From: Oribacterium sp. P6A1
GTDB taxonomy: Bacteria; Bacillota; Clostridia; Lachnospirales; Lachnospiraceae
Length of the DNA stretch: 64,000 bases
NCBI RefSeq assembly: GCF_000702885.1
Contig: NZ_JNKO01000015.1
Location: forward strand, 1 to 64,000
Direction of reading: 5' to 3'
The position numbers were made by a program, and so were the translations under genes. Positions 39,801 through 58,582 of the stretch are shown here, piece after piece. Position 1 is the first letter of the stretch. Every line of letters starts with the position of its first letter. The notes beneath the pieces were generated by a model. The model saw only the letters and a list, made by a program, of their open reading frames with translations. It ran no database searches and had not been told where the DNA came from.

Positions 39801-40019
39801 AGAGAAATCCAGATCCGTATTCAGATTAACTGTCATTCCCTCGGACCAGACATCCGACCGGCACTGCTTCGCAAAGTTTTTATAGTCCTCCATGGAATCG
39901 ATATCAAAGGTATGTGAAGCCTCAGCCGCGATTATAATTCCGGATACCGTCACTTGAATGGCCAGGAGCATCAAAAAAAATACGGAGGCTTTTACCATAT
40001 ATTTATTCATTTTCTTCAT
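36894..40019 (-). CDS. Large surface protein with GLUG repeats and a central coiled coil
   Basis: About 1041 residues. A signal peptide or N-terminal anchor (MKKMNKYMVKASVFFLMLLA) is followed by repeated GLUG-type units (GTVEGVTVN, GGIAGRNAG, GTIENSVNKG, GGIAGQ) to about residue 320. A long alpha-helical coiled-coil region (about 330-660) rich in Asn/Ser/Asp follows, then a second GLUG block (GGIVGTMG, GGICGKME, GGISGYG). A beta-rich segment and a C-terminal membrane helix before KKRSKPRGVH complete it. Its start lies inside the end of the MMPL gene (17-base overlap), so the two are coupled and probably function together in the envelope. Confidence 0.75.
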   Translation of the reverse strand: MKKMNKYMVKASVFFLMLLAIQVTVSGIIIAAEASHTFDIDSMEDYKNFAKQCRSDVWSEGMTVNLNTDLDFSSESIFPSISYFNGNFQGNNHKITNVRSENPVFRTIGSDGSVRNLELTSVNTSERDKTAAFVSENYGTVEGVTVNSSVSGKNTAGILAAVNGETGIIRSCYVSGTLEGDNGTGGIAGRNAGLIDDCTSSALVNTSVRESGVSTEDIKDILENILITRSINNVENFKTRIDTGGIAGYNLKSGTIKNCETSGTTGYSHLGYNTGGIAGRNGGTIENSVNKGAVFGRKDTGGIAGQQQPEITLDFSRDVLASMSEEIDAINLLVTDTLNTTEGITNSTYARLNGISKTLTEVKNSTNTIYNASLDRFDELSESINTNTETILDATGSIGDDMGYLDDSLDSLSSMSDSLSASIDDLAYAFSMSDADKNALIAQNNQLKEDLNYSSSFVNEAKNNLLPEVPEERQAKVSEGLTHINRMAGDIQAMKTILEGLRTKRDLIASGSVETDLAHRDAALEASVSNILDSLSDMDSASSRLSKFSSSVGGTLSGLAGNVNIHMESNPAVRAAGDNLYAQLDSLSSQLDSLSAFGRDDSIEVLQNLEAINNRFNSITGLLRDERDRLSDRLDEKDLFKDVSNSENSTSKIYRCRNAGNISGDIGVGGIVGTMGIEFDLDPDKDIHRSNDRSLNYSFGVSAVVMESENLGSVEGRGNYAGGICGKMETGLISGNKNTGDVEAPDGHFVGGIAGFADGELNNNTARCRVTGKKNVGGISGYGTTLRNNSAAVSILGEEEYAGAVSGQVEKLDGAQIKDNVYFGGNYGAIDNIDYAGLAEESSGPIGTLLVQFRMGGLLLDMQEVKPGTMLKDVPFPEPEKKEGFFIQWDAPMDTVIEDDLVVNASYYLPVALLNAPLNYKDSSKPVLMVDGQFMEKDALVFSMPEENHYLVEIPEDGLPERKIRVHKPEFLSCSFTVNGRKQATEDFGDYLVFVTGERKLDILITKDELPLGKIAVAIAGVVILTLLIVYKKRSKPRGVH

Positions 40020-45260: not shown

Positions 45261-48200
45261 TCAGCTGAACAGCATCCTGAAGGCTTCCATCTCGGCATCC
45301 TGGGGTGATGATCCGCTGTCCTCGAAGTGATTCACCGCATTCTGTACCTTCTGATAATCATTTGGAACTATCTTCTTGAAGGATGGAAGGAACTCTTCAA
45401 AATTCTCAAGTATCTCTATGCCTCTTGCAGAGTTTGTCTCCAGAACATAGTCCTTAAGTATGGATTTAAGCTCCTTTACGTCATACCTTTCTGTCACTTC
45501 CTGAAGCTGAACCATATCCTTGTTGAGTTTCAGATACAGCGAATGATCTTCATCCAGAACATAGGCGATTCCGCCGGACATACCGGCCGCAAAGTTCTTT
45601 CCGGTACGGCCAAGGATTACCACACGGCCGCCTGTCATATACTCAAGACCGTGATCACCGCAGCCCTCTGCAACAGCTGTTGCTCCCGAGTTTCTTACGC
45701 AGAATCTTTCTCCCGCGATACCTTCAACATAGCACTTTCCTGAAGTTGCCCCGTAAAGTGCAACATTACCGACGATGATGTTCTCGCAGGCACGGAATCT
45801 GCTCTCACGATTCGGGGTAAGTATCAGTTTTCCGCCGCTTAAGCCCTTTCCGAAACCATCATTGGCATCACCGTGCAGTCTTATGGTGAGACCCTTTGGA
45901 ATAAATGCTCCAAAGGACTGTCCGCCGCCGCCATAGGCTTCAACCACAAAGGTATCATCCTGAAGTTCCTGGGTCTTTGCCCCCATCCAGTATTTGTCAG
46001 TTATCTCTGAGCCGAGAATGGTTCCGAAGGTACGGTTTGTGCTTGAAACCTTAACCTTTTCCTCGTGATGCTCCCCCTTCTCTAAAGCCCCCTTGAACTT
46101 AGGAAGAAGTACGTCCTCGTCCAATGTCTTCTCCAGATGGAAATCATAAACATGCTCAGGATCGAAGTGACGTACATTCTCAGGAAGACTTGCAAATTCA
46201 GGATCAAGAATAGCCGAAAGATCAACCTTCTTTGCTCTCTCCGAAACCGCTGTTCTCTCTTCTGAAACTGCGAGACAGTCGGTACGTCCGACCATTTCCT
46301 GAACAGTCCTGAAGCCAAGCTCTGCCATGATCTCACGGAGTTCTGCTGCCACGAACTTCATGAAGTTCATAACATACTCAGGCTTGCCCTTGAACTTTGC
46401 ACGAAGTTTCTCGTTCTGGGTTGCAACACCGAAAGGACAGGTATCCTTGTGGCAGACTCTCATCATCATACATCCGAGACTCACAAGTGCTGTTGTGGCA
46501 AAGCCGTACTCCTCGGCACCAAGAAGTGCTGCGATTGCAACATCACGACCGGTCATAAGCTTACCGTCCGTCTCCAGCATTACCCTGTTGCGAAGTCCGT
46601 TACGGATAAGTGTCTGGTGAGCCTCAGTTATGCCAAGCTCCCATGGAAGTCCCGCATGGTGAATGGAAGTCATAGGGGCTGCTCCCGTTCCTCCGTCATA
46701 GCCCGCTATGAGTATAACCTGGGCTCCTGCCTTGGCAACACCGCAGGCGATGGTTCCTACACCGTTTTCAGAAGCAAGCTTTACAGATATGCGGGCACGG
46801 CGGTTTGCATTTTTAAGGTCATAGATAAGCTGTGCCAGATCCTCGATACTGTAGATATCGTGATGAGGCGGCGGAGAAATCAGTGACACTCCCGGAGTTG
46901 AAAATCTGGTCTTTGCAATCCATGGATAAACCTTCTTCCCCGGAAGATGTCCGCCCTCACCGGGCTTTGCACCCTGAGCCATCTTTATCTGTATTTCGTT
47001 TGCGGAATTAAGGTATGAGCCCGTAACTCCGAAACGTCCGGAAGCCACCTGCTTGATGGCAGAATTTCTCTCTGTTCCGTATCTTCCCGGATCTTCACCG
47101 CCTTCACCGGAATTCGACTTTCCGCCGAGACGGTTCATGGCGATGGCCATAGCCTCATGGGCTTCAAGAGAAATGGAGCCGTAAGACATTGCTCCTGTCT
47201 TGAAACGCTTAACAATGGACTCCACCGGCTCAACCTCATTGAGAGGGATGGGCTTGTTCTTCGGGACAAACTTCATGATACCGCGAAGTGTGTGGGGAAC
47301 TGAAGCATCATCCACCATGGCAGTGTATTCCTTGAACTTCTTGTAGTCCCCCTTCTGCACAGCCTTCTGAAGCGCCATGACGGTCTTTGGATTATAGAAA
47401 TGATCCTCAAAGTCCTTTCCGCGGCAGAAATTGCTGCCGTTGAAGTTTACAAATTCAGACTCCACATTACCGTTCACCCCCATAGGGTCAAAGGCCAGCT
47501 CATGTCTCCAGTTGACACTCTCTGAGATCTCCGGAATACCGATACCGCCAACTCTTGAAACGATTCCTGTAAAATATTTATCCGTAAACTTCCGGCTGAG
47601 TCCGATGGCCTCAAAAATCTTTGCAGACTGGTAGGACTGAAGGGTTGAAATACCCATCTTGGCTGCAATCTTGACTATGCCTCCCATTACCGCCTTGTTG
47701 TAGTCCTCGATGGCAGTATGAGTGTCCTTATCAAGGAGTCCTTCATCAATGATCTCGGCGATACACTCATGTGCAAGATAAGGATTTATGGCACGGGCAC
47801 CGAATCCAAGGATGGCAGCAAACTGGTGCACGTCTCTTGGCTCTGCCGACTCAAGAATCAGGGATACTGCAGTTCTCTTCTTTGTAAGGACAAGATGCTG
47901 CTCCACTGCACTTACCGCAAGAAGTGACGGAATAGCCACATGGTTTTCGTCAACTCCCCTGTCGCTCAGGATGATAATGTTAGCGCCTCTCTGGTATGCA
48001 CGGTCCACAGCAATTTCAAGCTGCTGGATGGCACGCTCCAAAGATGTATTCTGATAGTAAAGTAAAGAAACTACCGCAGTCTTGAAGCCGGGAGCATTAA
48101 GCTCCTTTATCTTCAGAAGTTCAACCCCTGTGAGAATAGGGTTTGAAATCTCCAGCACACGGCAGTTCTCCGCCTTATCCTGAAGGAGATTTCCGTCAGA

Positions 48201-49904
48201 ACCGAGATATACAGTTGTATCCGTAACCACCTTCTCGCGAAGAGAGTCGATAGGCGGATTTGTAACCTGGGCAAACAGCTGCTTGAAGTAACAGAACAGG
48301 GGCTTATGTCTCTTGTCAAAAACCGCAAGAGGCGTATCGTGTCCCATGGAATTTGTGTCCTCAACACCGTTCTGAGCCATAGGAAGAATGATGGACTTCA
48401 CATCCTCATAGGTATAGCCGAAGGCCTTGTAAAGCTTGCCACGGAGCTCCTTACTGTGAGTCTCAACCTTGTGGTTCGGAATCTTGATATCCTCAAGATG
48501 GAGAAGATTTCTGTCAAGCCACTCTCCGAAAGGATGGGCCTCGGCGAAATGCCTCTTTACTTCATCATCAGAAATGATTCTCTTCTCCTTTGTATCCACA
48601 AGAAGCATTCTGCCCGGCTGAAGTCTTGACTTTTCAACTATATGCTTAGGGTCAATGTCAAGAACTCCCACTTCTGAAGCAAGTATCAGTCTGTTGTCAT
48701 CGGTAATGTAATATCTCGATGGTCTCAGACCGTTTCTGTCAAGAGTTGCTCCCACCACGTCTCCGTCTGAGAAAATGATGGCTGCCGGTCCGTCCCAGGG
48801 TTCCATCATGGTTGCGTAATAATGATAGAAATCCTTCTTCTTGTCATCCATGAAGCGGTTGTGCTTCCATGGCTCGGGAATGGTGACTGTCATGGCAAGG
48901 GGCAGTTCCATTCCGTTCATGTAAAGGAACTCAAGGGAATTATCCAGCATTGCGGAATCGGAACCGTTTCTGTCAACCACCGGGAATATCTTCTCAACTT
49001 CCTTCTCAAGGAAAGGTCCTGACATGGTCTCCTCACGGGCAAGCATTCTGTCAATGTTTCCCCGGATGGTATTGATCTCACCGTTATGGGCAAGCATACG
49101 ATAAGGATGTGCGCGGTCCCAGCTTGGAGTGGTATTTGTTGAAAATCTGGAGTGAACTATGGCGATGGCTGTCTTATAGTCCGGGTCCCTCAGGTCATCG
49201 TAGAAGGCACGAAGCTGTCCCACCAGAAACATTCCCTTGTAAACGATGGAACGGGAACTTAATGAACAGATATACGTGTCCTCCGATGACTGTTCAAACT
49301 CTCGTCTCTGTACATATAAACGTCTGTCAAAATCTATTCCTGCTTCCACACCGGAAGGTCTTGCGATAAAACACTGTTCGATGCAGGGCATACAATCAAG
49401 GGCCACCTTGCCGAGAATCTCAGGATGTGTGGGAACAGCTCTCCAGCCAAGCACGGTAAGTCCGTTCTTCTTTGCGATAACCTCGAACATGCGCTTTGCA
49501 AATGCTCTCTTCTTTTCATCCTCCGGAAAGAAGAACATGCCCACGCCGTAATCTCTTTCTTCCTTGAGCTCTATACCTGCATTCTTTGCAGCCTTTTTAA
49601 AGAACTCGTGACTTATCTGAAGAAGGATTCCGACACCGTCACCAACCTTTCCGCTGGCATCTTTTCCGGCTCTGTGCTCAAGCTTCTCGACGATATGCAG
49701 GGCATCGTCAAGGACCTTTGTGTCCTTTGTGCCGTCGATATTAACCACTGTTCCGATACCGCAGGCATCGCTGCCAAGTTCCTCCGGATGTCCCCCGGAA
49801 ACCGGCCTCCATAAGGTATTGTGGCCCCGAAGCTCCTCCGGTACTGTGTAGCAGTTACCGTTTGCTGCATTGGACTCCTGGTTTAAATTTTGATAATTCT
49901 CCAT
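45261..49904 (-). CDS. gltB: Glutamate synthase, large subunit
   Basis: A 1547-residue glutamine:2-oxoglutarate amidotransferase. The N-terminal glutaminase nucleophile is Cys48 in SDACGIGTV, so a 47-residue propeptide is probably removed. The central domain, FMN/2-oxoglutarate domain (TGAAPMTSIHHAG, with the cluster cysteines in SLGCMMMRVCHKDTCPFG) and C-terminal GXGXG beta-helix domain follow in the usual order. It starts 25 bases after glnN, so the GS-GOGAT pair is likely co-transcribed. No small NADPH subunit (gltD) lies here; the electron donor is open. The leader GGGGAGTAT before the start matches those of dapL and asnB. Confidence 0.95.
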   Translation of the reverse strand: MENYQNLNQESNAANGNCYTVPEELRGHNTLWRPVSGGHPEELGSDACGIGTVVNIDGTKDTKVLDDALHIVEKLEHRAGKDASGKVGDGVGILLQISHEFFKKAAKNAGIELKEERDYGVGMFFFPEDEKKRAFAKRMFEVIAKKNGLTVLGWRAVPTHPEILGKVALDCMPCIEQCFIARPSGVEAGIDFDRRLYVQRREFEQSSEDTYICSLSSRSIVYKGMFLVGQLRAFYDDLRDPDYKTAIAIVHSRFSTNTTPSWDRAHPYRMLAHNGEINTIRGNIDRMLAREETMSGPFLEKEVEKIFPVVDRNGSDSAMLDNSLEFLYMNGMELPLAMTVTIPEPWKHNRFMDDKKKDFYHYYATMMEPWDGPAAIIFSDGDVVGATLDRNGLRPSRYYITDDNRLILASEVGVLDIDPKHIVEKSRLQPGRMLLVDTKEKRIISDDEVKRHFAEAHPFGEWLDRNLLHLEDIKIPNHKVETHSKELRGKLYKAFGYTYEDVKSIILPMAQNGVEDTNSMGHDTPLAVFDKRHKPLFCYFKQLFAQVTNPPIDSLREKVVTDTTVYLGSDGNLLQDKAENCRVLEISNPILTGVELLKIKELNAPGFKTAVVSLLYYQNTSLERAIQQLEIAVDRAYQRGANIIILSDRGVDENHVAIPSLLAVSAVEQHLVLTKKRTAVSLILESAEPRDVHQFAAILGFGARAINPYLAHECIAEIIDEGLLDKDTHTAIEDYNKAVMGGIVKIAAKMGISTLQSYQSAKIFEAIGLSRKFTDKYFTGIVSRVGGIGIPEISESVNWRHELAFDPMGVNGNVESEFVNFNGSNFCRGKDFEDHFYNPKTVMALQKAVQKGDYKKFKEYTAMVDDASVPHTLRGIMKFVPKNKPIPLNEVEPVESIVKRFKTGAMSYGSISLEAHEAMAIAMNRLGGKSNSGEGGEDPGRYGTERNSAIKQVASGRFGVTGSYLNSANEIQIKMAQGAKPGEGGHLPGKKVYPWIAKTRFSTPGVSLISPPPHHDIYSIEDLAQLIYDLKNANRRARISVKLASENGVGTIACGVAKAGAQVILIAGYDGGTGAAPMTSIHHAGLPWELGITEAHQTLIRNGLRNRVMLETDGKLMTGRDVAIAALLGAEEYGFATTALVSLGCMMMRVCHKDTCPFGVATQNEKLRAKFKGKPEYVMNFMKFVAAELREIMAELGFRTVQEMVGRTDCLAVSEERTAVSERAKKVDLSAILDPEFASLPENVRHFDPEHVYDFHLEKTLDEDVLLPKFKGALEKGEHHEEKVKVSSTNRTFGTILGSEITDKYWMGAKTQELQDDTFVVEAYGGGGQSFGAFIPKGLTIRLHGDANDGFGKGLSGGKLILTPNRESRFRACENIIVGNVALYGATSGKCYVEGIAGERFCVRNSGATAVAEGCGDHGLEYMTGGRVVILGRTGKNFAAGMSGGIAYVLDEDHSLYLKLNKDMVQLQEVTERYDVKELKSILKDYVLETNSARGIEILENFEEFLPSFKKIVPNDYQKVQNAVNHFEDSGSSPQDAEMEAFRMLFS

Positions 49905-49929: not shown

Positions 49930-52038
49930 TTATCTCAATGAGAAAAGAAGCTTTGAATATGTAGGATATGGCAGGCAGCTCTCAGGAATCATGCTCTCTG
50001 CCTTATCAACATGTACTCTCAGAGCATCCATGTCTGCGAGAACACTGTCATGATATGCAACTGCCTGGGCAAGGCTGTCTGTAAGACCTTCTGTTACGAG
50101 AAGATCTGCTTCAAGCTTGTCTACTCCCTTTCTGATCTCCTCTGCCTCCCTGTCAAGTCTCTCAAGGATTCCTGCTTCAAGTGCGCATGATACGCCTGAA
50201 AGAAGCTGCTTCTTGGAAAGGGCTGTTGCTGTAACCTCTGTCTGATACTTGAGAAGACCTTCTGTGAAGTCCTTCTTTACCATCTCAAGCATGGTAAGTG
50301 CCTCGATGCGGATGGTCTTTGAATAGTTCTCAAGGAAGATCTCATATCTTGAATCGATCTCGGTTTCTGTAAATACGTGATGCTTTACAAAAAGCTCCTT
50401 GTTCTTTGCTGCGATGAGTCTGGGCATAGCTGCAGGAAGGGACTTAAGGTTGTAGAGTCCTCTTCTTTCTGCTTCCTCAACCCACTCGTCTGTGTAGCCG
50501 TTTCCGTTGAATACGATTCTTCTGTGCTTATCAACAAGCTCCTTTATGAGCTTTCCTGCCTCTTCTTCAACCTTCTCTTCCGGAACTCCTGAAAGTCTCT
50601 CAACTATATAGTCGATAGCCTCAGCTACAGCTGTGTTAAGTACGATGTTAGGGTCTGCAACTGAAAGTGATGAACCCGGCATACGGAATTCAAACTTATT
50701 TCCTGTAAATGCAAATGGTGATGTTCTGTTACGGTCGGTGTTGTCCTTTCTGAAATGAGGAAGTACGTGAGCACCTGTCTCCATCTGTGCTGCCGCATCT
50801 GACTTGAAATCAGCTTCATCATTCTCGATGGACTCAAGAACTTTCTCAAGAGCATCTCCGACATAAACAGAAACGATGGCTGGCGGTGCCTCGTTTGCAC
50901 CGAGTCTATGATCATTTCCGGCTGTGGCAACGGATACTCTCATGAGATCTGCATAATCATCGATAGCCTTGATGATGGCACTTAAGAACAGAAGGAACTG
51001 TGTATTCTTCTCAGGTGTCTTGCCGGGATCAAGAAGGTTCTCACCCTCGGATGAAACCATGGACCAGTTGTTGTGCTTACCTGAACCGTTGATTCCCTCA
51101 AATGGCTTCTCATGAAGGAGACATGCGAAATTATGCTTGTCTGCCACCTTCTTCATGATCTCCATGGTGAGCTGGTTATGATCAACTGCTATGTTTGCTG
51201 TTTCGAAAACAGGTGCCAGCTCATGCTGTGAAGGAGCAACCTCATTATGCTTTGTCTTTGCGGGAATTCCCAGCTTCCAGAGCTCTTCATCAAGATCATG
51301 CATGAAAGCGGAAACCTTTGGCTTCAGAACTCCGAAGTAGTGATCCTCCATCTCCTGTCCCTTTGGAGCCGATGCACCGATAAGTGTACGGCCTGTGAGA
51401 AGAAGATCCTCTCTGTCCTTATAGAGATCCTTGTCTATAAGGAAGTACTCCTGCTCTGATCCCACTGTGGTGTCTACTCTTGTGACTGCTGTCTTTCCAA
51501 GGATGTGAAGAAGCTTTGTTGCAGATTCACTTAGAGTCTCCATGGAACGAAGAAGAGGTGTCTTCTTATCAAGAGCTTCTCCTGTGTATGAGCAGAATGC
51601 TGTCGGAATGTAAAGTGTTCCGTCCTTTATAAATGCCGGTGAAGATGGGTCCCAGGCGGTATAGCCTCTTGCTTCAAATGTGGCACGAAGGCCGCCTGAT
51701 GGGAAGGATGAAGCGTCCGGCTCGCCCTTAACGAGTTCTTTTCCGGAGAATTCAAGAAGTACACCGCCATCTGCTGTCGGGGTTATAAAGCTGTCGTGCT
51801 TCTCTGCAGTGAGACCCGTCATCGGCTGGAACCAGTGAGTGTAGTGTGTAGCACCTTTTTCAAGGGCCCACTCCTTCATGGTTGCAGCTACTGTATTAGC
51901 AACATCTATTTCCAGATGTGTACCGTTCTGGATAGTCTTGTGAACGGCCTTATAGATGTCCTTGGGAAGTCTCTCCCTCATGATCTTGTCACTGAAAACA
52001 AGACTTCCGTAAATTTCAGAAATAGTTGATGTACTCAT
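49930..52038 (-). CDS. glnN: Glutamine synthetase type III
   Basis: A 702-residue GSIII, the long form found in Bacteroides and many Clostridia, which makes glutamine from glutamate and ammonium. N-terminus MSTSTISEIYGSLVFSDKIM. The catalytic-domain motifs are TVGSEQEYFLID, KTKHNEVAPSQHELAP, NGSGKHNNWS and GNDHRLGANEAPP. Upstream is a terminator-like leader (52061-52109) with an ANTAR-type hexaloop. Downstream, gltB follows in the same transcript. Confidence 0.95.
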   Translation of the reverse strand: MSTSTISEIYGSLVFSDKIMRERLPKDIYKAVHKTIQNGTHLEIDVANTVAATMKEWALEKGATHYTHWFQPMTGLTAEKHDSFITPTADGGVLLEFSGKELVKGEPDASSFPSGGLRATFEARGYTAWDPSSPAFIKDGTLYIPTAFCSYTGEALDKKTPLLRSMETLSESATKLLHILGKTAVTRVDTTVGSEQEYFLIDKDLYKDREDLLLTGRTLIGASAPKGQEMEDHYFGVLKPKVSAFMHDLDEELWKLGIPAKTKHNEVAPSQHELAPVFETANIAVDHNQLTMEIMKKVADKHNFACLLHEKPFEGINGSGKHNNWSMVSSEGENLLDPGKTPEKNTQFLLFLSAIIKAIDDYADLMRVSVATAGNDHRLGANEAPPAIVSVYVGDALEKVLESIENDEADFKSDAAAQMETGAHVLPHFRKDNTDRNRTSPFAFTGNKFEFRMPGSSLSVADPNIVLNTAVAEAIDYIVERLSGVPEEKVEEEAGKLIKELVDKHRRIVFNGNGYTDEWVEEAERRGLYNLKSLPAAMPRLIAAKNKELFVKHHVFTETEIDSRYEIFLENYSKTIRIEALTMLEMVKKDFTEGLLKYQTEVTATALSKKQLLSGVSCALEAGILERLDREAEEIRKGVDKLEADLLVTEGLTDSLAQAVAYHDSVLADMDALRVHVDKAESMIPESCLPYPTYSKLLFSLR

Positions 52039-52060: not shown

Positions 52061-52109
52061 AAGAGGACAATAGCGCACGAAATATCTCGTGGAACGCCAT
52101 TGTCCTCTT
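52061..52109 (-). promoter_or_regulatory. glnN leader attenuator with an ANTAR-type hexaloop
   Basis: AAGAGGACAAT and ATTGTCCTCTT form an 11-bp terminator stem, followed on the minus strand by TTTTG. In its 5' arm the RNA GGAC-AATGGC-GTTC (52092-52105) can form a competing 4-bp stem with a 6-base loop that has A at position 1 and G at position 4. The transcript probably starts just before the hairpin (a weak TAAACT -10 lies upstream). Confidence 0.6.
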
Positions 52110-52202: not shown

Positions 52203-52805
52203 TCACATTTTATTAATGATTATCCTTCCGCTTTCCCGGATGACCTTCATGGCCACTTCACGTTTGGTAACGGAAGTATTCATAGCCTGCTGCTCCAGGA
52301 ATCTGTGGGCCTCCCCTTCGGTCATGCCCTCCTTCTCTATGAGCAGTCCCTTTGCTCTTGAGATATAACGCTCATCCGAAAGCTTCTGCTGAAGCTTCAG
52401 ATTCTCATTATAAAGGCTCTGCATCTTCCGGCTCACAGTACCGAGAAGTCTGACTGTTGCCGTAAAACCTGCGGCACTCAGCGGTCTCGCCAGCATCATG
52501 ATTCCGGAATCTCCGGCACGGTAAACTGCCTGTTGGTAAACGTCTTTGTCCACCAGCATCAGTATGCTCGAAGCCGGATATTTGGCAGCCAGATCTATAA
52601 CAGACTGAAGTCCGTAATCCGGAAGAGGCGTGCAGATAATGATGATGTCGTACCTCTCTTCCGTAAGCTTCTGCTTAAGCTTCGTCATGGATGGCTGAAA
52701 TGAGACTTTTCCAAATCCCGCGGGCAGTATACCCTTGATCTGGACAGCAATCTTTTCAGCAGCCGCCGCGATGAGTACGCTGCTCCCTTGCTCCGCTCTC
52801 TCCAT
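52203..52805 (-). CDS. ANTAR-domain RNA-binding regulator with a degenerate receiver
   Basis: 200 residues. A receiver-like domain (about 1-125) is joined by a helical linker to a C-terminal ANTAR domain (about 140-198) with the core RAKGLLIEKEGMTEGEA. ANTAR proteins bind paired hexaloop hairpins and prevent transcription termination. The phosphoacceptor position reads IIIICTPLP in place of the usual D, and the conserved Lys is Arg (ARPLS), so phosphorylation is unlikely. It lies between glnN and glnA on the same strand. No sensor kinase is adjacent, so the signal may be direct ligand binding or protein interaction. Confidence 0.85.
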   Translation of the reverse strand: MERAEQGSSVLIAAAAEKIAVQIKGILPAGFGKVSFQPSMTKLKQKLTEERYDIIIICTPLPDYGLQSVIDLAAKYPASSILMLVDKDVYQQAVYRAGDSGIMMLARPLSAAGFTATVRLLGTVSRKMQSLYNENLKLQQKLSDERYISRAKGLLIEKEGMTEGEAHRFLEQQAMNTSVTKREVAMKVIRESGRIIINKM

Positions 52806-52937: not shown

Positions 52938-54152
52938 CTACAGCTCTTCCCCGGAATATGCCTGAAGATATCCCTCCGGAAGAAGTGTTCTCACAAAGTC
53001 TGACCCCTTTGCGTAAGCGATAGCTTCATCAAGAGACTGAGGCAGTCTCTTGAGACTGTCGGTTACTGTTGTATCTGCCTTAAAGAGATTCACATCAAGA
53101 GGCTCCATAGGCTGCAGCTTTCTGTCTATACCATCAATTCCCGCATATATAAGAAGCGTAAATGCGAGGTACGGATTAGCCATAGGATCCGGAGAACGAA
53201 GCTCTATCCTCTTAAGCTGTGATCTCGTTGCCGGAATTCTAATAAGCTGTGAACGATTCTGTTCTGACCAGCTTACGAACTTCGGCGCCTTCATATCACC
53301 GAGTCTCTCATAGCTCTCTCTTGTCGGATTAAGGAAAAGCGAGATCTCACGGATGTGCTCCATGATTCCTGCCATGAAATACTTTGTGTAGTCCTGTCCG
53401 TCCCTGGCCTCTACGGAAATATTTATATGCATTCCGTTACCCGGCTTGTTGGGAATAGGTTTCGGGCTGAAATCTGCCCAGACTCCGTCTGAATGAGCAA
53501 CGGATTTTACCACCCACTTAAATGTAGAAGCATTGTCCGCAGCCATCAGCGGATCTGAATATCTGAAATCAACCTCATTCTGTCCCGGTCCCATCTCATG
53601 GTGGCTGGACTCAGGTCTTATACCCATATCCACAAGGGCAAGGCTGATGTCTCTTCTTATATTCTCACCGTGATCTTCAGGTGCTATGTCCATGTAACCG
53701 GCCATATCCTGAGGAATCGTGGTTCTGTTTCCGTTCTCATCCAGCTTAAAGATGTAGAACTCAACCTCTGTTCCGAAGTTAATACGGAATCCCTTTTCCT
53801 CTGCAAATTTCACAGCCTGCTTCAAAAGCCATCGGCTGTCTCTCTGAAAGAGACTTCCGTCCGGATACTCTATATCGCAGAACATCTTGGCAACTCTTCC
53901 GTCTATAGGTCTCCACGGCACTATAGACATGGTAGTGGGATCCGGTCTCAGAAAGAGATCCGAGTGAACCTCTGCACCAAATCCGGCAACTGAACTTGCG
54001 TCAATGCTTACACCTTCCGTAAAAGCTCTTTTCAGCTCATCCGGCATGATTGCAATGTTTTTCTGGACTCCAAATACATCAAAAAATGCGAGTCTTATAA
54101 ATTTGACATTTTCCTCTTCAACAAACTCGAGGACATCTTCGTAGGAATTCAT
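52938..54152 (-). CDS. glnA: Glutamine synthetase, type I family, short C-terminus
   Basis: 404 residues from ATG 54152, which has AGAGGTG six bases upstream. The frame is open to 54293 but that extension has no ribosome-binding site. Catalytic motifs are GTEVEFYIF, HHEMGPGQNEVDF, GNGMHINIS and NRSQLIRIPATR...RIELRSPDPMANPYLAF. It ends TLLPEGYLQAYSGEEL, about 35 residues earlier than typical GSI enzymes, so it lacks the terminal helix that locks the two hexamers. The KPGNGMH form is also unlike typical GlnA. It is probably a divergent GS-like ligase; classical GS activity is not certain. Confidence 0.8.
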   Translation of the reverse strand: MNSYEDVLEFVEEENVKFIRLAFFDVFGVQKNIAIMPDELKRAFTEGVSIDASSVAGFGAEVHSDLFLRPDPTTMSIVPWRPIDGRVAKMFCDIEYPDGSLFQRDSRWLLKQAVKFAEEKGFRINFGTEVEFYIFKLDENGNRTTIPQDMAGYMDIAPEDHGENIRRDISLALVDMGIRPESSHHEMGPGQNEVDFRYSDPLMAADNASTFKWVVKSVAHSDGVWADFSPKPIPNKPGNGMHINISVEARDGQDYTKYFMAGIMEHIREISLFLNPTRESYERLGDMKAPKFVSWSEQNRSQLIRIPATRSQLKRIELRSPDPMANPYLAFTLLIYAGIDGIDRKLQPMEPLDVNLFKADTTVTDSLKRLPQSLDEAIAYAKGSDFVRTLLPEGYLQAYSGEEL

Positions 54153-54347
54153 GTCTTTCACCTCTATATTCGGAAACGTCAGTCCCTCCATGAAATCATT
54201 CGCCTCAAAGGACCGGCGTTGTGTGTCAGACTTACGATCAAAGTCTGACACAATATTATCATAGGAATTAAAAATTGTATTGTCGAAACTCATTTTTATT
54301 TAACTCGCTGTTCTAAAATAGTTATGTTTGTGGATCAATGACTTTTC

Positions 54348-54419
54348 GAGTCAGAGGGAATCCAATTCTGATTTTTCTCGCCTCAGCTTTACGGTCTTAT
54401 ATGGTTCCCCCTCTGACTC
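54348..54419. repeat. Palindromic element upstream of glnA
   Basis: GAGTCAGAGGGAAtCC and GGttCCCCCTCTGACTC flank a copy of the 33-mer that also occurs, in opposite orientation, at 42739-42771. It lies downstream of dapL and may act as its terminator (a T-rich tail follows). The remaining bases of 54153-54465 hold only the open but non-coding extension of the glnA frame. Confidence 0.75.
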
Positions 54420-54465
54420 TTTAAAAAATCCTGTCCCGTCTAAACTATAACTGATACATATCAGT

Positions 54466-55665
54466 TTATCTTGTTTTCATAACGAATTTTTCAAATCGCT
54501 CCATGGCTTCCTTTGTATTCTCATGAGTTGAAAACGCTGTGAGACGGAAGAACTTATCTCCCGATTTTCCGAAACCCGCTCCCGGTGTTCCTACAACATA
54601 GGCCTCCTTCAGAAGCCTGTCGAAGAAGCTCCAGCTGTCCATATCTCCGGGACACTTAAGCCAGATATACGGAGAATTCTTTCCTCCGGTGTAGTAGATA
54701 TGAAGCTTATCCATGGTATCAGTGATGATCTTTGCATTATCACGATAGTACCGGATATTCTCCTCTATCTCCTTTTCACCTTCCTGTGAAAAAATAGCCT
54801 CCGCTCCTCTCTGGGTGATGTAGCTGACTCCGTTGAATTTTGTTGTCTGGCGGCGAAGCCACATCTTATTGAGATTTCCACCTTCACGTTCCAGAGTATC
54901 AGGAACAATGGTATAACCGCATCTTGTGCCGGTGAAGCCTGCCTTCTTTGAAAGACTGCAGAACTCTATGGCAACCTCCCTTGCTCCGGGTATCTCGAAG
55001 ATACTGTGTGGATAATCTCCTGTAACAAAGCATTCATAAGCTGCATCAAAAAGAATGATGGAGCCGTTTTCCTTTGCAAACTCTACCCACTTTGCAAGGG
55101 ATTCTCTGTTGTATACAGCTCCTGTAGGATTGTTTGGACTGCAAAGGTAGATGATGTCAGCCTTATATTCCGGTGCCGGCATGGGCAGGAAATCATTTTC
55201 CTCGGAAGACATGGCGAAGATAACTTTACGGTCATCCATCATATTAGTATCCACATAAACCGGATATACAGGATCCGTAACAAGGACTGTATTGTCTTTA
55301 TCGAAAAGATCAAGGATATTTCCCAGATCAGACTTGGCTCCATCTGAAATGAAGATTTCGTCAGAATCAAGCTCTACACCAAATTTTGTATAGTATTTGC
55401 GGACTGCTTCTTTAAGGAAGTCATAGCCCTGCTCAGGTCCGTATCCCCGGAATGTCTCTGCCTCTCCCATTTCCTTTGCCGCAGTGATCATCGCGTCCAC
55501 CACTGACCTGGGAAGGGGTCTGGTTACATCTCCTATTCCCATACGGATAAGTTTATTTGATACTTCAGGATTTTCAGACTGCCATACACGTATTCGTCTG
55601 GCAATCTCCGAAAAAAGATAGCTTTCATTAAGCTTCAGATAATTTTGATTGATCTTTGTAGACAT
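54466..55665 (-). CDS. dapL: LL-diaminopimelate aminotransferase
   Basis: A 399-residue class I/II PLP aminotransferase of the DapL group, converting tetrahydrodipicolinate plus glutamate directly to LL-diaminopimelate for lysine and cell-wall synthesis. The start motif NQNYLKLNESYLFSEIARRI and GIGDVTRPLP are typical, and the PLP lysine lies in SLSKKAGFTGTR. I start at ATG 55665 with GGGGAG seven bases upstream. The leader contains a strong promoter and attenuator (55745-55825). It is divergent from asnB. Confidence 0.93.
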   Translation of the reverse strand: MSTKINQNYLKLNESYLFSEIARRIRVWQSENPEVSNKLIRMGIGDVTRPLPRSVVDAMITAAKEMGEAETFRGYGPEQGYDFLKEAVRKYYTKFGVELDSDEIFISDGAKSDLGNILDLFDKDNTVLVTDPVYPVYVDTNMMDDRKVIFAMSSEENDFLPMPAPEYKADIIYLCSPNNPTGAVYNRESLAKWVEFAKENGSIILFDAAYECFVTGDYPHSIFEIPGAREVAIEFCSLSKKAGFTGTRCGYTIVPDTLEREGGNLNKMWLRRQTTKFNGVSYITQRGAEAIFSQEGEKEIEENIRYYRDNAKIITDTMDKLHIYYTGGKNSPYIWLKCPGDMDSWSFFDRLLKEAYVVGTPGAGFGKSGDKFFRLTAFSTHENTKEAMERFEKFVMKTR

Positions 55666-55699
55666 TTTTATACTCCCCAGTATTTTCCACATCTATATA

Positions 55700-55744: not shown

Positions 55745-55825
55745 AAAGGGCAACAAGCATCTGGTACATAACCAGGACGCCGTTGCCCTTTTCGCTAATT
55801 ATACGGTAAGTGCCGGTTATGTCAA
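55745..55825 (-). promoter_or_regulatory. dapL promoter and attenuator with an ANTAR-type hexaloop
   Basis: Minus strand: TTGACA (55820-55825), 16 bases, TATAAT (55798-55803), start near 55791. The RNA then opens at once into AAAGGGCAAC ... GTTGCCCTTT (55745-55791) and a T-run, an intrinsic terminator. In its 5' arm GGGC-AACGGC-GTCC (55775-55788) can form a 4-bp stem with an AxxGxx hexaloop. GCCGGTTAT next to the -35 recurs as GCCGGTAAT beside the asnB promoter. Confidence 0.7.
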
Positions 55826-55877: not shown

Positions 55878-55967
55878 TTGACATTCACTTTCCTCTGCGT
55901 AATAATTTTGAGCCATAAAGACGGCAAAGGAGTCGGTTTAATTCACCGGGCTTCCTTTGCCGTCTTT
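55878..55967 (+). promoter_or_regulatory. asnB promoter and attenuator with an ANTAR-type hexaloop
   Basis: TTGACA (55878-55883), 17 bases, AATAAT (55901-55906), start near 55913. The leader hairpin AAAGACGGCAAAGGA / TCCTTTGCCGTCTTT (55917-55967) is a 15-bp stem. Its 5' arm can refold as CGGC-AAAGGA-GTCG (55922-55935), again with A at loop position 1 and G at 4. A TTTTTTT run lies 14 bases after the stem, so termination strength is uncertain. Confidence 0.65.
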
Positions 55968-56000: not shown

Positions 56001-57587
56001 ATGTGTAGTATCATTGGATTCTGTGACAAGCGCGCACAGTATGAAGTCGTAAAAACAGCGCTCTTAAAAACTGTATCAAGAGGACCTGACGCAACAAGAA
56101 TAGTTGACACAGGTAACGGCTACCTCGGTTTCAATCGTCTCTCCATCATGGGACTTAATGAAGCCGGAATGCAGCCTTTCAATCTTGACGGTTCATGGGT
56201 AGTCTGCAACGGTGAGATCTACGGCTTCCGCTCAATGAAGGAACGCCTCATAACAGAGGGCTATACATTCAAATCAGATTCAGACTGTGAGATTCTTCTC
56301 CCTCTTTACAAAGAATACGGCACAGATATGTTCAGAATGCTGGATGCTGAATATGCACTTGTGATTTATGATGCAGAGACAGGCTCCTACATCGCAGCCC
56401 GGGATCCTTTCGGAATCCGTCCTCTTTACTACGGAACCACCGAAGAAGGTATTATGACATTTGCCTCAGAACCCAAGAACCTGGTAGGTCTCTGTCATGA
56501 AATCAAGCCTTTCCCACCCGGACATTATTATAAGGATGGGGAGTTCCACTGCTATCATGACATTTCAAAAGTAAACAAATATAACTGCTCCGATGACATG
56601 GATGCTATCTCATCCCATATTCATGATCTTCTCGTAAAGGGTGTGGAAAAGCGTCTGGATGCAGATGCACCGGTTGGTTTTCTTCTTTCCGGAGGTCTCG
56701 ACTCATCCCTTGTATGTGCCATTTCCGCAAAACTTCTTAACAAGCCCATCGAGACCTATGCCATCGGAATGGACATTGACGCCATCGATCTTAAGTACGC
56801 CCGTGAGGTTGCGGACTTTATCGGTTCAAACCACCACGAAGTAATCATTAACAAGGATTCGGTTGTCAATGCCATCGAGCCTGTTATTGCAGCACTGGGA
56901 ACCTACGATATCACCACCGTACGTGCCTCTATCGGTATGTACCTTTTATGTAAAGCAATTCATGAGCAGTCTGACATCCGCGTTCTTCTTACAGGCGAGA
57001 TCTCTGACGAGATTTTCGGATATAAATACACTGATTTCGCACCTTCTGCGGAGGAATTCCAGAAGGAAGCAGAGAAACGTGTACGTGAGCTTCATATGTA
57101 TGACGTTCTTCGTGCAGACCGCTGTATCAGCGTAAACTCTCTGGAGGCAAGAGTTCCTTTCGGTGACCTTGATTTCGTTGATTACGTAATGCACATCGAT
57201 CCTGAGAAGAAACTCAATAAATACAACAAGGGTAAATATCTCCTTCGTCACGCATTTGAAAAGGATCACATCCTTCCGGAAAGCATCCTCATGCGTGAAA
57301 AAGCAGCATTCTCCGATGCCGTAGGTCACTCATTAAAGGATGACATCGCAGAGTATGCAGAGGCTCATTACACTGACGAAGAGTTTAAGGAAAAGTGCGG
57401 TAAGTACACTCATGCCACACCTTTCACAAAGGAATCTCTTCTTTTCCGTGAGATATTTGAGAAGTACTATCCCGGCCAGTCAGAAATGGTAGTTGATTTC
57501 TGGATGCCCAACAAAACATGGCCGGGCTGCAATGTAAACGATCCGTCCGCAAGAGTTCTTTCAAACTACGGAGATTCCGGAAAGTAA
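56001..57587 (+). CDS. asnB: Asparagine synthetase (glutamine-hydrolysing)
   Basis: A 528-residue enzyme making asparagine from aspartate, glutamine and ATP. I start at ATG 56001 because Cys2 of MCSIIGF must be the N-terminal nucleophile of the glutaminase domain; the longer frame from 55878 begins in the promoter. The synthetase domain has the PP-loop LLSGGLDSSLV and GEISDEIFGY. GGGGAGTAT precedes the start, as for dapL and gltB. It is a single gene ending at a convergent terminator. Confidence 0.95.
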   Translation: MCSIIGFCDKRAQYEVVKTALLKTVSRGPDATRIVDTGNGYLGFNRLSIMGLNEAGMQPFNLDGSWVVCNGEIYGFRSMKERLITEGYTFKSDSDCEILLPLYKEYGTDMFRMLDAEYALVIYDAETGSYIAARDPFGIRPLYYGTTEEGIMTFASEPKNLVGLCHEIKPFPPGHYYKDGEFHCYHDISKVNKYNCSDDMDAISSHIHDLLVKGVEKRLDADAPVGFLLSGGLDSSLVCAISAKLLNKPIETYAIGMDIDAIDLKYAREVADFIGSNHHEVIINKDSVVNAIEPVIAALGTYDITTVRASIGMYLLCKAIHEQSDIRVLLTGEISDEIFGYKYTDFAPSAEEFQKEAEKRVRELHMYDVLRADRCISVNSLEARVPFGDLDFVDYVMHIDPEKKLNKYNKGKYLLRHAFEKDHILPESILMREKAAFSDAVGHSLKDDIAEYAEAHYTDEEFKEKCGKYTHATPFTKESLLFREIFEKYYPGQSEMVVDFWMPNKTWPGCNVNDPSARVLSNYGDSGK

Positions 57588-57711
57588 GATGGATTAACCC
57601 TTAAGGATTCATTTTACTTCTTTTAAGCCCTAGGGGCTCCCCCCGATTATTAATCGGAGGCAGATACAGAAGTTTACGGCTACGGCCGATAAACTTATAC
57701 TCCCTATAAAG

Positions 57712-57745
57712 CAAAAACTCCGCCTCGTATGAGACGGAGTTTTTG
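57712..57745. terminator. Convergent terminator shared by asnB and the zinc operon
   Basis: CAAAAACTCCG... pairs with ...CGGAGTTTTTG around GTAT, with A/T runs on both sides. The segment 57640-57700 holds further small palindromes (CTCCCCCCGATTATTAATCGGAGG). Confidence 0.88.
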
Positions 57746-57751
57746 TTTTAT

Positions 57752-58582
57752 TCATCTCATCATTCCCACCACACAAGAGATTCCAAAGGCCGCCACATTT
57801 ACTACCACTATGGTAGATCCCACAGGAGTCCCCGCAAGAATTGAAATGATTATTCCGAAAAAGGCGCATATAACCGAAATCACCGCTGAACAGATGGTAA
57901 CCCCCTTAAAGCTTCTGAAAATACGCATGGCAGACAACGCCGGAAAAACAGACAGTGCCGATATCAAAAGTGAGCCAACGAGATTCATGGCCAGCACTAT
58001 GATTACAGCGATCACCACTGCTATCAAAAGGTTATAGCTGTCTGCATTTGTGCCAGTGGCTTTTGCGAAATTCTCATCAAAGGTCACTGCAAAGATCTTG
58101 TTGTAAAACAGTACAAAAATAATGACTACAGCTATGGACAGTACCGTACAGAGCCACACCTCTCTTTCTGTCAGGGTCAGTATGGATGTGGATCCAAAAA
58201 GGGTGCTGCACACATCTCCTGACAGATTTGAAGATGTTGAAAATACATTCATGATGAGATAACCGAAGGCAAGGGCGCCTACGGATATCATGGCGATGGC
58301 GGCATCACCTTTTATTTTTGCATCCTGACCTCCTCTAAGAAGAAATATTGCACTTAATATGGTTACAGGAAGCACCAGAAGCATTTGATTGCTGAGATTA
58401 ACGACACTTGCTATGGCTATGGCACCAAAGGCCACATGGGATAATCCGTCTCCAATAAAAGAAAACCTCTTAAGTACAAGAGTGACTCCCAAAAGGGAGG
58501 CGCACAGTGCGATCAGAACTCCGACTATTATTGCGTATCTCACAAAGGGATACTGCATGTACATGGAAAGCTTTTCAAGCAT
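57752..58582 (-). CDS. znuB: Zinc ABC transporter, permease
   Basis: 276 residues, almost wholly hydrophobic, with about eight membrane segments. The ABC-3 family motif GDGLSHVAFGAIAIAS is present, typical of Zn/Mn permeases. Its start shares a base with the stop of the ATPase gene, so translation is coupled. Last gene of the operon led by the Fur-family regulator, which indicates zinc rather than manganese. Confidence 0.9.
   Translation of the reverse strand: MLEKLSMYMQYPFVRYAIIVGVLIALCASLLGVTLVLKRFSFIGDGLSHVAFGAIAIASVVNLSNQMLLVLPVTILSAIFLLRGGQDAKIKGDAAIAMISVGALAFGYLIMNVFSTSSNLSGDVCSTLFGSTSILTLTEREVWLCTVLSIAVVIIFVLFYNKIFAVTFDENFAKATGTNADSYNLLIAVVIAVIIVLAMNLVGSLLISALSVFPALSAMRIFRSFKGVTICSAVISVICAFFGIIISILAGTPVGSTIVVVNVAAFGISCVVGMMR

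Follow-up and report, generated by a model that had tools for sequence, protein, structure and literature searches.

The RNA targets of ANTAR-domain proteins described at eutP, nasF, and amiE by Ramesh et al. (2012; PMC3369931) are dual: two hairpins with six-base loops (hexaloops), P1 and P2, are joined by a linker, which is 5 to 12 nt long in the Enterococcus faecalis eut system. In later work (Walshe et al. 2022; PMC8934654), dimers of the ANTAR protein EutV touched one hexaloop at a time, and EutV binding to P1 alone or P2 alone was not significantly different from binding to the dual RNA; the minimal ANTAR binding motif was redefined as one hexaloop, and single sites were predicted to exist. 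Two published genome searches for ANTAR RNAs demanded both hairpins (PMC3369931 and PMC8164766), a design that single-loop targets would escape. In Clostridium saccharobutylicum NCP262, NitR is described as an ANTAR antiterminator that switches on the genes for glutamine synthetase and glutamate synthase (GS/GOGAT) when nitrogen is limiting (PMC6316151, citing Stutz et al. 2007). Here we examine the leader of glnN and related leaders in a 64,000-nt stretch of Oribacterium sp. P6A1 (contig NZ_JNKO01000015.1, positions 1 to 64,000; "the window"), in which the gene for an ANTAR protein, NitR, lies directly upstream of glnN on the same strand. To our knowledge, nitrogen control in Lachnospiraceae and other Clostridia is poorly described; in a search of the literature, with most subscription papers outside its scope, none of the titles and abstract openings listed describes a single-hexaloop clostridial nitrogen regulon.

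The Oribacterium leaders share with the ANTAR-target RNA of Ramesh et al. (PMC3369931) a hexaloop with A at position 1 and G at position 4 (A1/G4), conserved top pairs, a hairpin formed by the 5' arm of a terminator, an ANTAR protein in the genome, and downstream nitrogen genes (glutamate and glutamine synthase genes were among the matches of Ramesh et al.). They differ in having one hairpin, which often starts within a few bases of where the transcript is presumed to begin; the two hairpins with a short linker are absent, and the leaders fall outside the dual-hairpin ANTAR RNA family as its definition stands. We think it probable that they form an ANTAR attenuator regulon for glutamine metabolism, controlled by NitR, in which a single hexaloop suffices. 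Support comes from a pair of folds that exclude each other and that are conserved and co-vary, from promoter-like sequences close to the hairpins, from the set of downstream genes, and from the co-occurrence with NitR in the genus.

Competing structures in the glnN leader and at similar sites in the genome

The original prediction held that the glnN transcript opens with a perfect 11-bp terminator-like stem, whose 5' arm can refold into the hairpin GGAC-AATGGC-GTTC. On the minus strand, positions 52109 to 52061 read AAGAGGACAATGGCG, a 19-nt loop, and CGCTATTGTCCTCTT; directly 3' of the stem lies UUUUGAAUUUU, with a short U tract. The 11 perfect pairs are present, as part of a 15-bp stem that also includes one G.U and 3 further pairs, and the nitR-glnN gap folds with a z of −5.45 relative to shuffled sequences (0/200 as good). 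The alternative hairpin was also borne out: the minimum free energy fold of the truncated leader is the hexaloop (−2.1 kcal/mol), and that of the full-length leader is the terminator. The hexaloop stem has one G.U among its 4 pairs, and its six-base loop carries A1 and G4. That the stem precedes glnN is clear, but a transcript start at this place is unproven: the best promoter-like match before the element is weak (3/12 mismatches), and the element may be transcribed by read-through from nitR. Upstream of the hairpin, the nitR-glnN gap contains no other A1/G4 hexaloop whose stem reaches 3 bp, in agreement with the single loop first reported.

By itself, a hexaloop-plus-terminator match is weak evidence. 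A loose scan for this combination gave 4 matches in the 64-kb window versus 0 to 4 in ten Markov controls; because matches at this rate are expected by chance, conservation must carry the claim. The scan result is what one would expect if these were ordinary intrinsic terminators carrying a hexaloop by chance, an explanation that is already contradicted by the conservation described below and that we regard as almost certainly wrong. It also fits poorly with the scores in the Oribacterium sp. P6A1 genome itself. A search with model R2 (see below) scored four sites in this genome highly and gave further sites across Clostridia. The glnN element was the only one noted in the window at first; it is real, and two further copies in the window had been overlooked, one in the leader of the aminotransferase-glnA-nitR run and one in that of asnB (Table 1). 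The fourth, GTGAC-AAAGGC-GTCAC, precedes pyrG on contig C3. Each of the four has one hexaloop. Their R2 scores are 51.1, 47.5, 46.7, and 46.0 bits, whereas the next place in the genome, opposite-strand mirrors aside, scores 20 bits (150 of 810 first-look candidates scored).

A search of window positions 40000 to 64000 against Rfam at E ≤ 5 gave sub-threshold matches only. One of them, to rli22, covers the glnN leader at 26.4 bits versus a gathering score of 80, and was set aside as a terminator look-alike.

Conservation and covariation in the genus

Close NitR homologues are encoded in 12/17 genomes of the genus, our own included, and glnN directly follows nitR in nine of these. All nine nitR-glnN gaps, none dropped, contain GGACAATG, two free bases, and then GTYC. 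Since GTYC lies mostly outside the terminator stem, the terminator cannot account for its invariance, a further point against hexaloops that arose by chance. Loop positions 5 and 6 vary among the glnN leaders, with the 3' arm of the terminator changing along with them, and A1-G4 are constant; within these leaders alone, the hexaloop stem is variable at one pair only (GU/GC). In one genome (G001), the hairpin stem starts 11 nt past the nitR stop codon, which leaves no space for another hairpin between the genes. In the three remaining genomes (G002, G004, and G012), glnN is located elsewhere, likewise behind a hexaloop hairpin. What follows nitR in G012, G004, and G002 (L007, L008, and L011) is, by translation, a MATE-type transporter gene (two genomes) or groES-groEL (one).

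Model R1, built on the 9 glnN leaders without G002, G004, and G012, recovered the unseen glnN sites of G004 (E = 5.2e-13) and G012 (E = 1.7e-12). It also gave a G002 site at E = 3.4e-7, and the G002 glnN hairpin was identified as well. Model R2, built on 34 sites from the twelve genus genomes with close NitR, had matches at E ≤ 1e-8 in 12/12 of these, the same genomes that supplied its training sites. In the four genus genomes without a NitR match (G005, G007, G009, and G013, of which G009 was checked for the absence of any ANTAR domain), R2 gave no match below E 0.3 (4/4), and the 330 nt before glnN held no hexaloop with terminator. The glnN of these four is a diverged form, 51 to 53% identical, and no asnB match was found in them. 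G002 has two glnN forms, the genus type with the hairpin and the diverged one without it. In G006, whose ANTAR protein is divergent, we identified one hairpin by eye before asnB, and none was flagged before glnN.

At the 34 genus sites, A1, A2, and G4 of the loop and the closing C-G pair are present in 34/34 (A1 and G4 partly by selection). Column 3 of the stem in alignment A4 is G, C, or U and pairs with both its hexaloop partner (GC 20, CG 10, and UA 3 among 33 distinct sites) and its terminator partner (GC 19, CG 10, UA 3, and GU 1); covariation of one column with two partners is expected of competing folds. The covariation score and the share of paired cells were reached by 0/500 shuffles, and the covariation scores of the hexaloop (0.420) and of the terminator (0.495) exceeded those of slid structures (≤0.162 and ≤0.208, respectively). 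The original prediction had been staked on conservation of the hexaloop pairing in relatives; the pairing is kept, with compensatory change, in the genus and recurs across Clostridia. We also folded a set of 100 sites, comprising 34 from the genus and 66 others (116 examined, minus 14 without hexaloop and 2 duplicates): truncated leaders formed the hexaloop in 96/100 cases and full leaders the terminator pairing in 100/100. As in described ANTAR targets, the 5' strand of the hairpin is also used by an intrinsic terminator.

These data bear on whether the conserved sequence is read by a factor other than NitR, either an RNA-binding protein or a DNA-binding regulator positioned over the transcription start, so that the likeness to ANTAR hexaloops would be incidental. 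Many of the hairpins lie so close to a promoter that a DNA site is conceivable, and NitR binding is itself something we infer; nevertheless, conservation follows RNA pairing in two alternative folds and the terminator, the loop signature and closing pair match those of ANTAR targets, and the four genus genomes without a NitR match lack R2 matches below E 0.3. We consider a different reader very unlikely.

Promoter spacing and the number of hexaloops

The region upstream of the hairpin is outside the model and hence free to reveal a first hairpin. We identified promoters as consensus matches and took the expected transcript start as 7 nt after the −10 element. A −35/−10 pair with at most 1/12 mismatches was found at 47/100 sites (200 shuffles: mean 0.17, maximum 2), namely, at 21/34 genus sites and 26/66 others. 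The distance from the expected start to the hairpin is <17 nt at 45 of these 47 sites, including 24 of the 26 outside the genus, and ≤10 nt at 42/47; <17 nt of leader is too little for the first hairpin of the dual motif. Looser promoters (4 mismatches) were found at 84/100 sites (shuffle mean 45, maximum 57), and at 0/84 of these does an A1/G4 hexaloop lie between the −10 element and the hairpin, with the proviso that closely related sites among the 100 are not independent. Some A1/G4 hexaloop occurs in the 60 nt upstream at 10/100 sites, mostly as 3-bp stems that overlap promoter elements; L200 is the one site that cannot be discounted on these grounds. To explain the lone hexaloop at glnN, the original prediction had offered that one loop suffices, that the RNA is dimeric, or that it is bound differently; the first option is the best of these, as many promoters leave no space for a first hairpin.

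Leaders with two hairpins do exist. In two relatives outside the genus, G056 (L025) and G049 (L339), glnN is preceded by two hairpins with, by eye, promoter-like sequence ahead of the first. The first loop in G056 is AACTAA, without G4; in G049, the P1 loop is AATGGG (A1/G4) and the P2 loop begins with G. The glnA leader of G049 has a single hairpin in the same genome as the two-hairpin glnN leader. That such leaders were seen argues that their absence elsewhere is not blindness of the method. A different arrangement, again recognized by eye, is found in the glnN leaders L189 (G537:C9, ~78336-78492) and L212 (G548:C101), where one promoter-like sequence is followed by two complete single-hexaloop attenuators in tandem, both equipped with a terminator of their own.

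If two loops were required all the same, the second could be supplied by another RNA, with a NitR dimer bridging two transcripts or a small RNA providing the partner loop. The two hexaloops on one dimer in the EutV crystal do come from different RNA molecules (PMC8934654), and each active promoter would be expected to yield many identical nascent leaders. The authors of the structure considered trans binding unlikely within the time that transcription allows, however, and binding of single hairpins did not differ significantly from that of the dual RNA (PMC8934654). We therefore judge a partner loop in trans to be improbable. Still less probable is that the terminator's own apical hairpin serves as the second one, contacted even though its loop departs from the A1/G4 rule. 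An apical stem lies just 3' of the hexaloop in some leaders, such as those of the window aminotransferase and pyrG, but the loops and lengths of apical hairpins are not conserved among sites, and in the window asnB leader the apical hairpin shares bases with the hexaloop stem.

Sites beyond the genus

At E ≤ 0.001, R2 had matches in 48/299 genomes of the family and 44/391 of the class, our own genome included. We examined in sequence the 58 best-scoring foreign matches, and 47 of them have the hexaloop (27/29 in the family and 20/29 in the class). According to translations and Pfam, 35 of these 47 precede nitrogen or glutamine genes: glnN, glnA, asnB, pyrG, purF, a gltB-type amidotransferase gene, and genes for P-II, amt, ureA, and eutA. 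One of the 35, L187, was read from the other strand, and in a few cases the gene starts 200 to 380 nt away. The gene names dapL, ureA, purF, purC, and asnA reflect our reading of translations unless Pfam is cited, as do glnN, asnB, and pyrG outside the window, one BLAST comparison aside. By comparison, 0/11 of the matches lacking the hexaloop stand before a nitrogen or glutamine gene (ten open reading frames were scanned with Pfam). Recurrence before glutamine genes in such distant genomes is also at odds with hexaloops by chance.

We also searched 80 contig pieces around NitR homologues and obtained 27 R2 matches at E ≤ 0.05 in 23/80 pieces. Once three opposite-strand mirrors were dropped, 21 of the 24 matches have the hexaloop, two of them being duplicates. 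A further genome (G499) is, we presume, that of C. saccharobutylicum NCP262, home of the founding NitR. The glnA leader of its glnA-nitR-gltB cluster contains one hairpin, ATTGAGC-AAAGGC-GTTCGAT, which lies ~15 nt after TATAAT and overlaps a terminator; the nitR-gltB gap has no such hexaloop hairpin. A second genome (G713) has the same arrangement, with the hairpin GTTGAGC-AAAGGC-GTTCAAT. The presumed C. saccharobutylicum system and that of Oribacterium thus share glnA leaders or leader regions with one hexaloop, and they differ in that the Oribacterium gene order includes glnN and the inferred target set includes asnB and pyrG. Elsewhere in G499, a hexaloop with a terminator and no recognizable first hairpin (L341:6799-6812) is located ~0.4 kb upstream of a eutA-family gene.

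The NitR protein

The presence of an ANTAR gene next to glnN was confirmed: the ANTAR domain of NitR scores 60.8 bits (Pfam cutoff, 27.3; E = 1.1e-16) and is the sole PF03861 match in the genome. The protein can be aligned with Rv1626 (entry 1s8n), EutV, and AmiR. The position of EutV Asp54 is occupied by Cys58 in the window NitR, and 15/15 aligned homologues have no Asp there, so NitR lacks the phospho-acceptor of EutV-class response regulators, and phosphorylation at this position is unlikely to be its signal. AmiR similarly has a pseudo-receiver and is controlled by a partner protein (PMC8934654). Positions matching the EutV RNA contacts Lys149, Glu160, and Met172 (numbers that we mapped from construct numbering) are invariant in the 15 NitR homologues.

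A model for control by a single hexaloop

Judging from their sequences, the Oribacterium leaders likely work like an ANTAR antiterminator. By default, the leader RNA would fold into the intrinsic terminator. NitR, activated most likely under nitrogen or glutamine limitation, would bind the single hexaloop, which is predicted to be the first hairpin to form, at or near the 5' end of the RNA. A hexaloop held by NitR would keep the 5' arm of the terminator, allowing polymerase to read into glnN, aminotransferase-glnA-nitR, asnB, or pyrG. One hexaloop per terminator would be enough, with no P1 hairpin and presumably one dimer per loop, which the structure and binding data for EutV make plausible (PMC8934654). 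A hairpin at the 5' end should be free to fold as it emerges, and this may be why P1 is unnecessary.

Several observations weigh against such a NitR regulon. Removing P1 from E. faecalis eutP eliminated induction, and a protein consisting of ANTAR plus coiled coil failed to bind a construct without the second loop (PMC3369931); in our analysis, the eutP genetics and these 2012 binding results argue against simply transferring the findings on EutV. Walshe et al. expected single sites where polymerase imposes no time limit (PMC8934654), whereas the sites here are fused to terminators, so the time constraint applies. NitR has His at the position of EutV Tyr164, the residue that stacks on G4 (as does AmiR), and EutV Arg142 is not conserved in NitR. 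As for covariation, the number of hexaloop pairs with a double change was reached by 192/500 shuffles and that of further hexaloop pair types by 340/500, and doubly changed hexaloop cells numbered 18, compared with 19 when the partners were slid by +1. The co-variation tracks target-gene class, implying few independent events, and, because the sites were gathered by hexaloop criteria or by models derived from them, complete pairing is partly built in. At the level of individual sites, the U tract of the window's glnN leader is short, L200 (duplicate L223) lacks a good promoter and may contain an upstream hairpin, and the G006 asnB hairpin scores poorly with R2 (15.3 bits). In G005, a genome without a NitR match, R1 produced five matches down to E = 1.9e-4; the best of these (L127), upon inspection, has no hexaloop with terminator. 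An ANTAR domain is encoded in 265/299 family genomes, so that co-occurrence beyond the genus says little; it is encoded in 47/48 of the R2-positive family genomes, the exception being G177, whose match has no hexaloop. Most of the 80 pieces around NitR homologues show no R2 match. Finally, no nitrogen or glutamine gene follows 12/47 of the foreign hexaloop sites; examples are sites before genes for two ATP synthase a subunits, a histidine kinase, a HAMP protein, a branched-chain-type ABC ATPase, and a sodium:alanine symporter.

The ATP synthase sites, L192 (G426:C31:11346-11389) and L197 (G653:C42:26784-26835), are attenuators with abutting promoter-like sequence before the gene for subunit a; the two genomes belong to different families, and the genes fall outside the nitrogen theme.

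Weighing all of this, we retain the single-hexaloop regulon under NitR control as the probable explanation of the Oribacterium leaders. With less assurance, we lean toward a wider proposal: that a single 5'-end hexaloop is a complete ANTAR antiterminator, common in Clostridia and governing a glutamine regulon that may include glnA, glnN, gltB, asnB, pyrG, purF, amt, glnK, and ureA. In that case, the dual loop would be one of several layouts (single, dual, and tandem), with P1 an accessory where the hairpin does not open the transcript. The leaders described here are natural, terminator-fused candidate targets with too little space between promoter and hairpin for a second loop, and they offer a natural test of the role of P1 and of whether one ANTAR dimer on one loop beats a terminator. 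They further point to a switch acting across the glutamine pathway in Lachnospiraceae and other Clostridia.

Features of the window

The genes and leader elements of the window are given in Table 1. The aminotransferase gene is presumably dapL-like.

Table 1. Genes, hairpins, terminators, and promoters associated with the nitR region of the window
Feature	Position	Strand	Basis
gltB, glutamate synthase large subunit; next gene after glnN	45261..49904	-	Pfam
glnN, type III glutamine synthetase	49930..52038	-	Pfam
glnN leader, terminator stem	52061..52109	-	Sequence, fold, covariation in 9 genus leaders
glnN leader, putative antiterminator hexaloop hairpin GGAC-AATGGC-GTTC	52092..52105	-	Conservation, fold
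nitR, ANTAR protein with degenerate receiver domain	52203..52805	-	Pfam, alignment
glnA, glutamine synthetase	52938..54293	-	Pfam
Aminotransferase class I/II, first gene of aminotransferase-glnA-nitR run	54466..55692	-	Pfam
Aminotransferase-glnA-nitR leader, terminator overlapping hexaloop	55743..55793	-	Fold
Aminotransferase-glnA-nitR leader, hexaloop AGGGC-AACGGC-GTCCT	55774..55789	-	51.1 bits (model R2)
Promoter TTGACA-16-TATAAT, 8 nt before aminotransferase-leader hairpin	55798..55825	-	Consensus match
Promoter TTGACA-17-AATAAT, 15 nt before asnB hairpin	55878..55906	+	Consensus match
asnB leader, terminator overlapping hexaloop	55917..55967	+	Fold
asnB leader, hexaloop CGGC-AAAGGA-GTCG	55922..55935	+	47.5 bits (model R2)
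asnB, glutamine-hydrolysing asparagine synthase, ATG at 56001	56001..57587	+	Pfam

A pattern, GRACAAN{6,36}TTGTYC, was tried across the genus and dropped as too loose. Two other repeats in the window are recorded here. The aminotransferase-glnA gap contains a strong inverted repeat (54350-54425), the sequence of which, by eye, is not conserved in four relatives. Between asnB and a convergent ABC permease gene lies a terminator-like repeat (57688-57787) that has a sub-threshold score for ohsC RNA on both strands.
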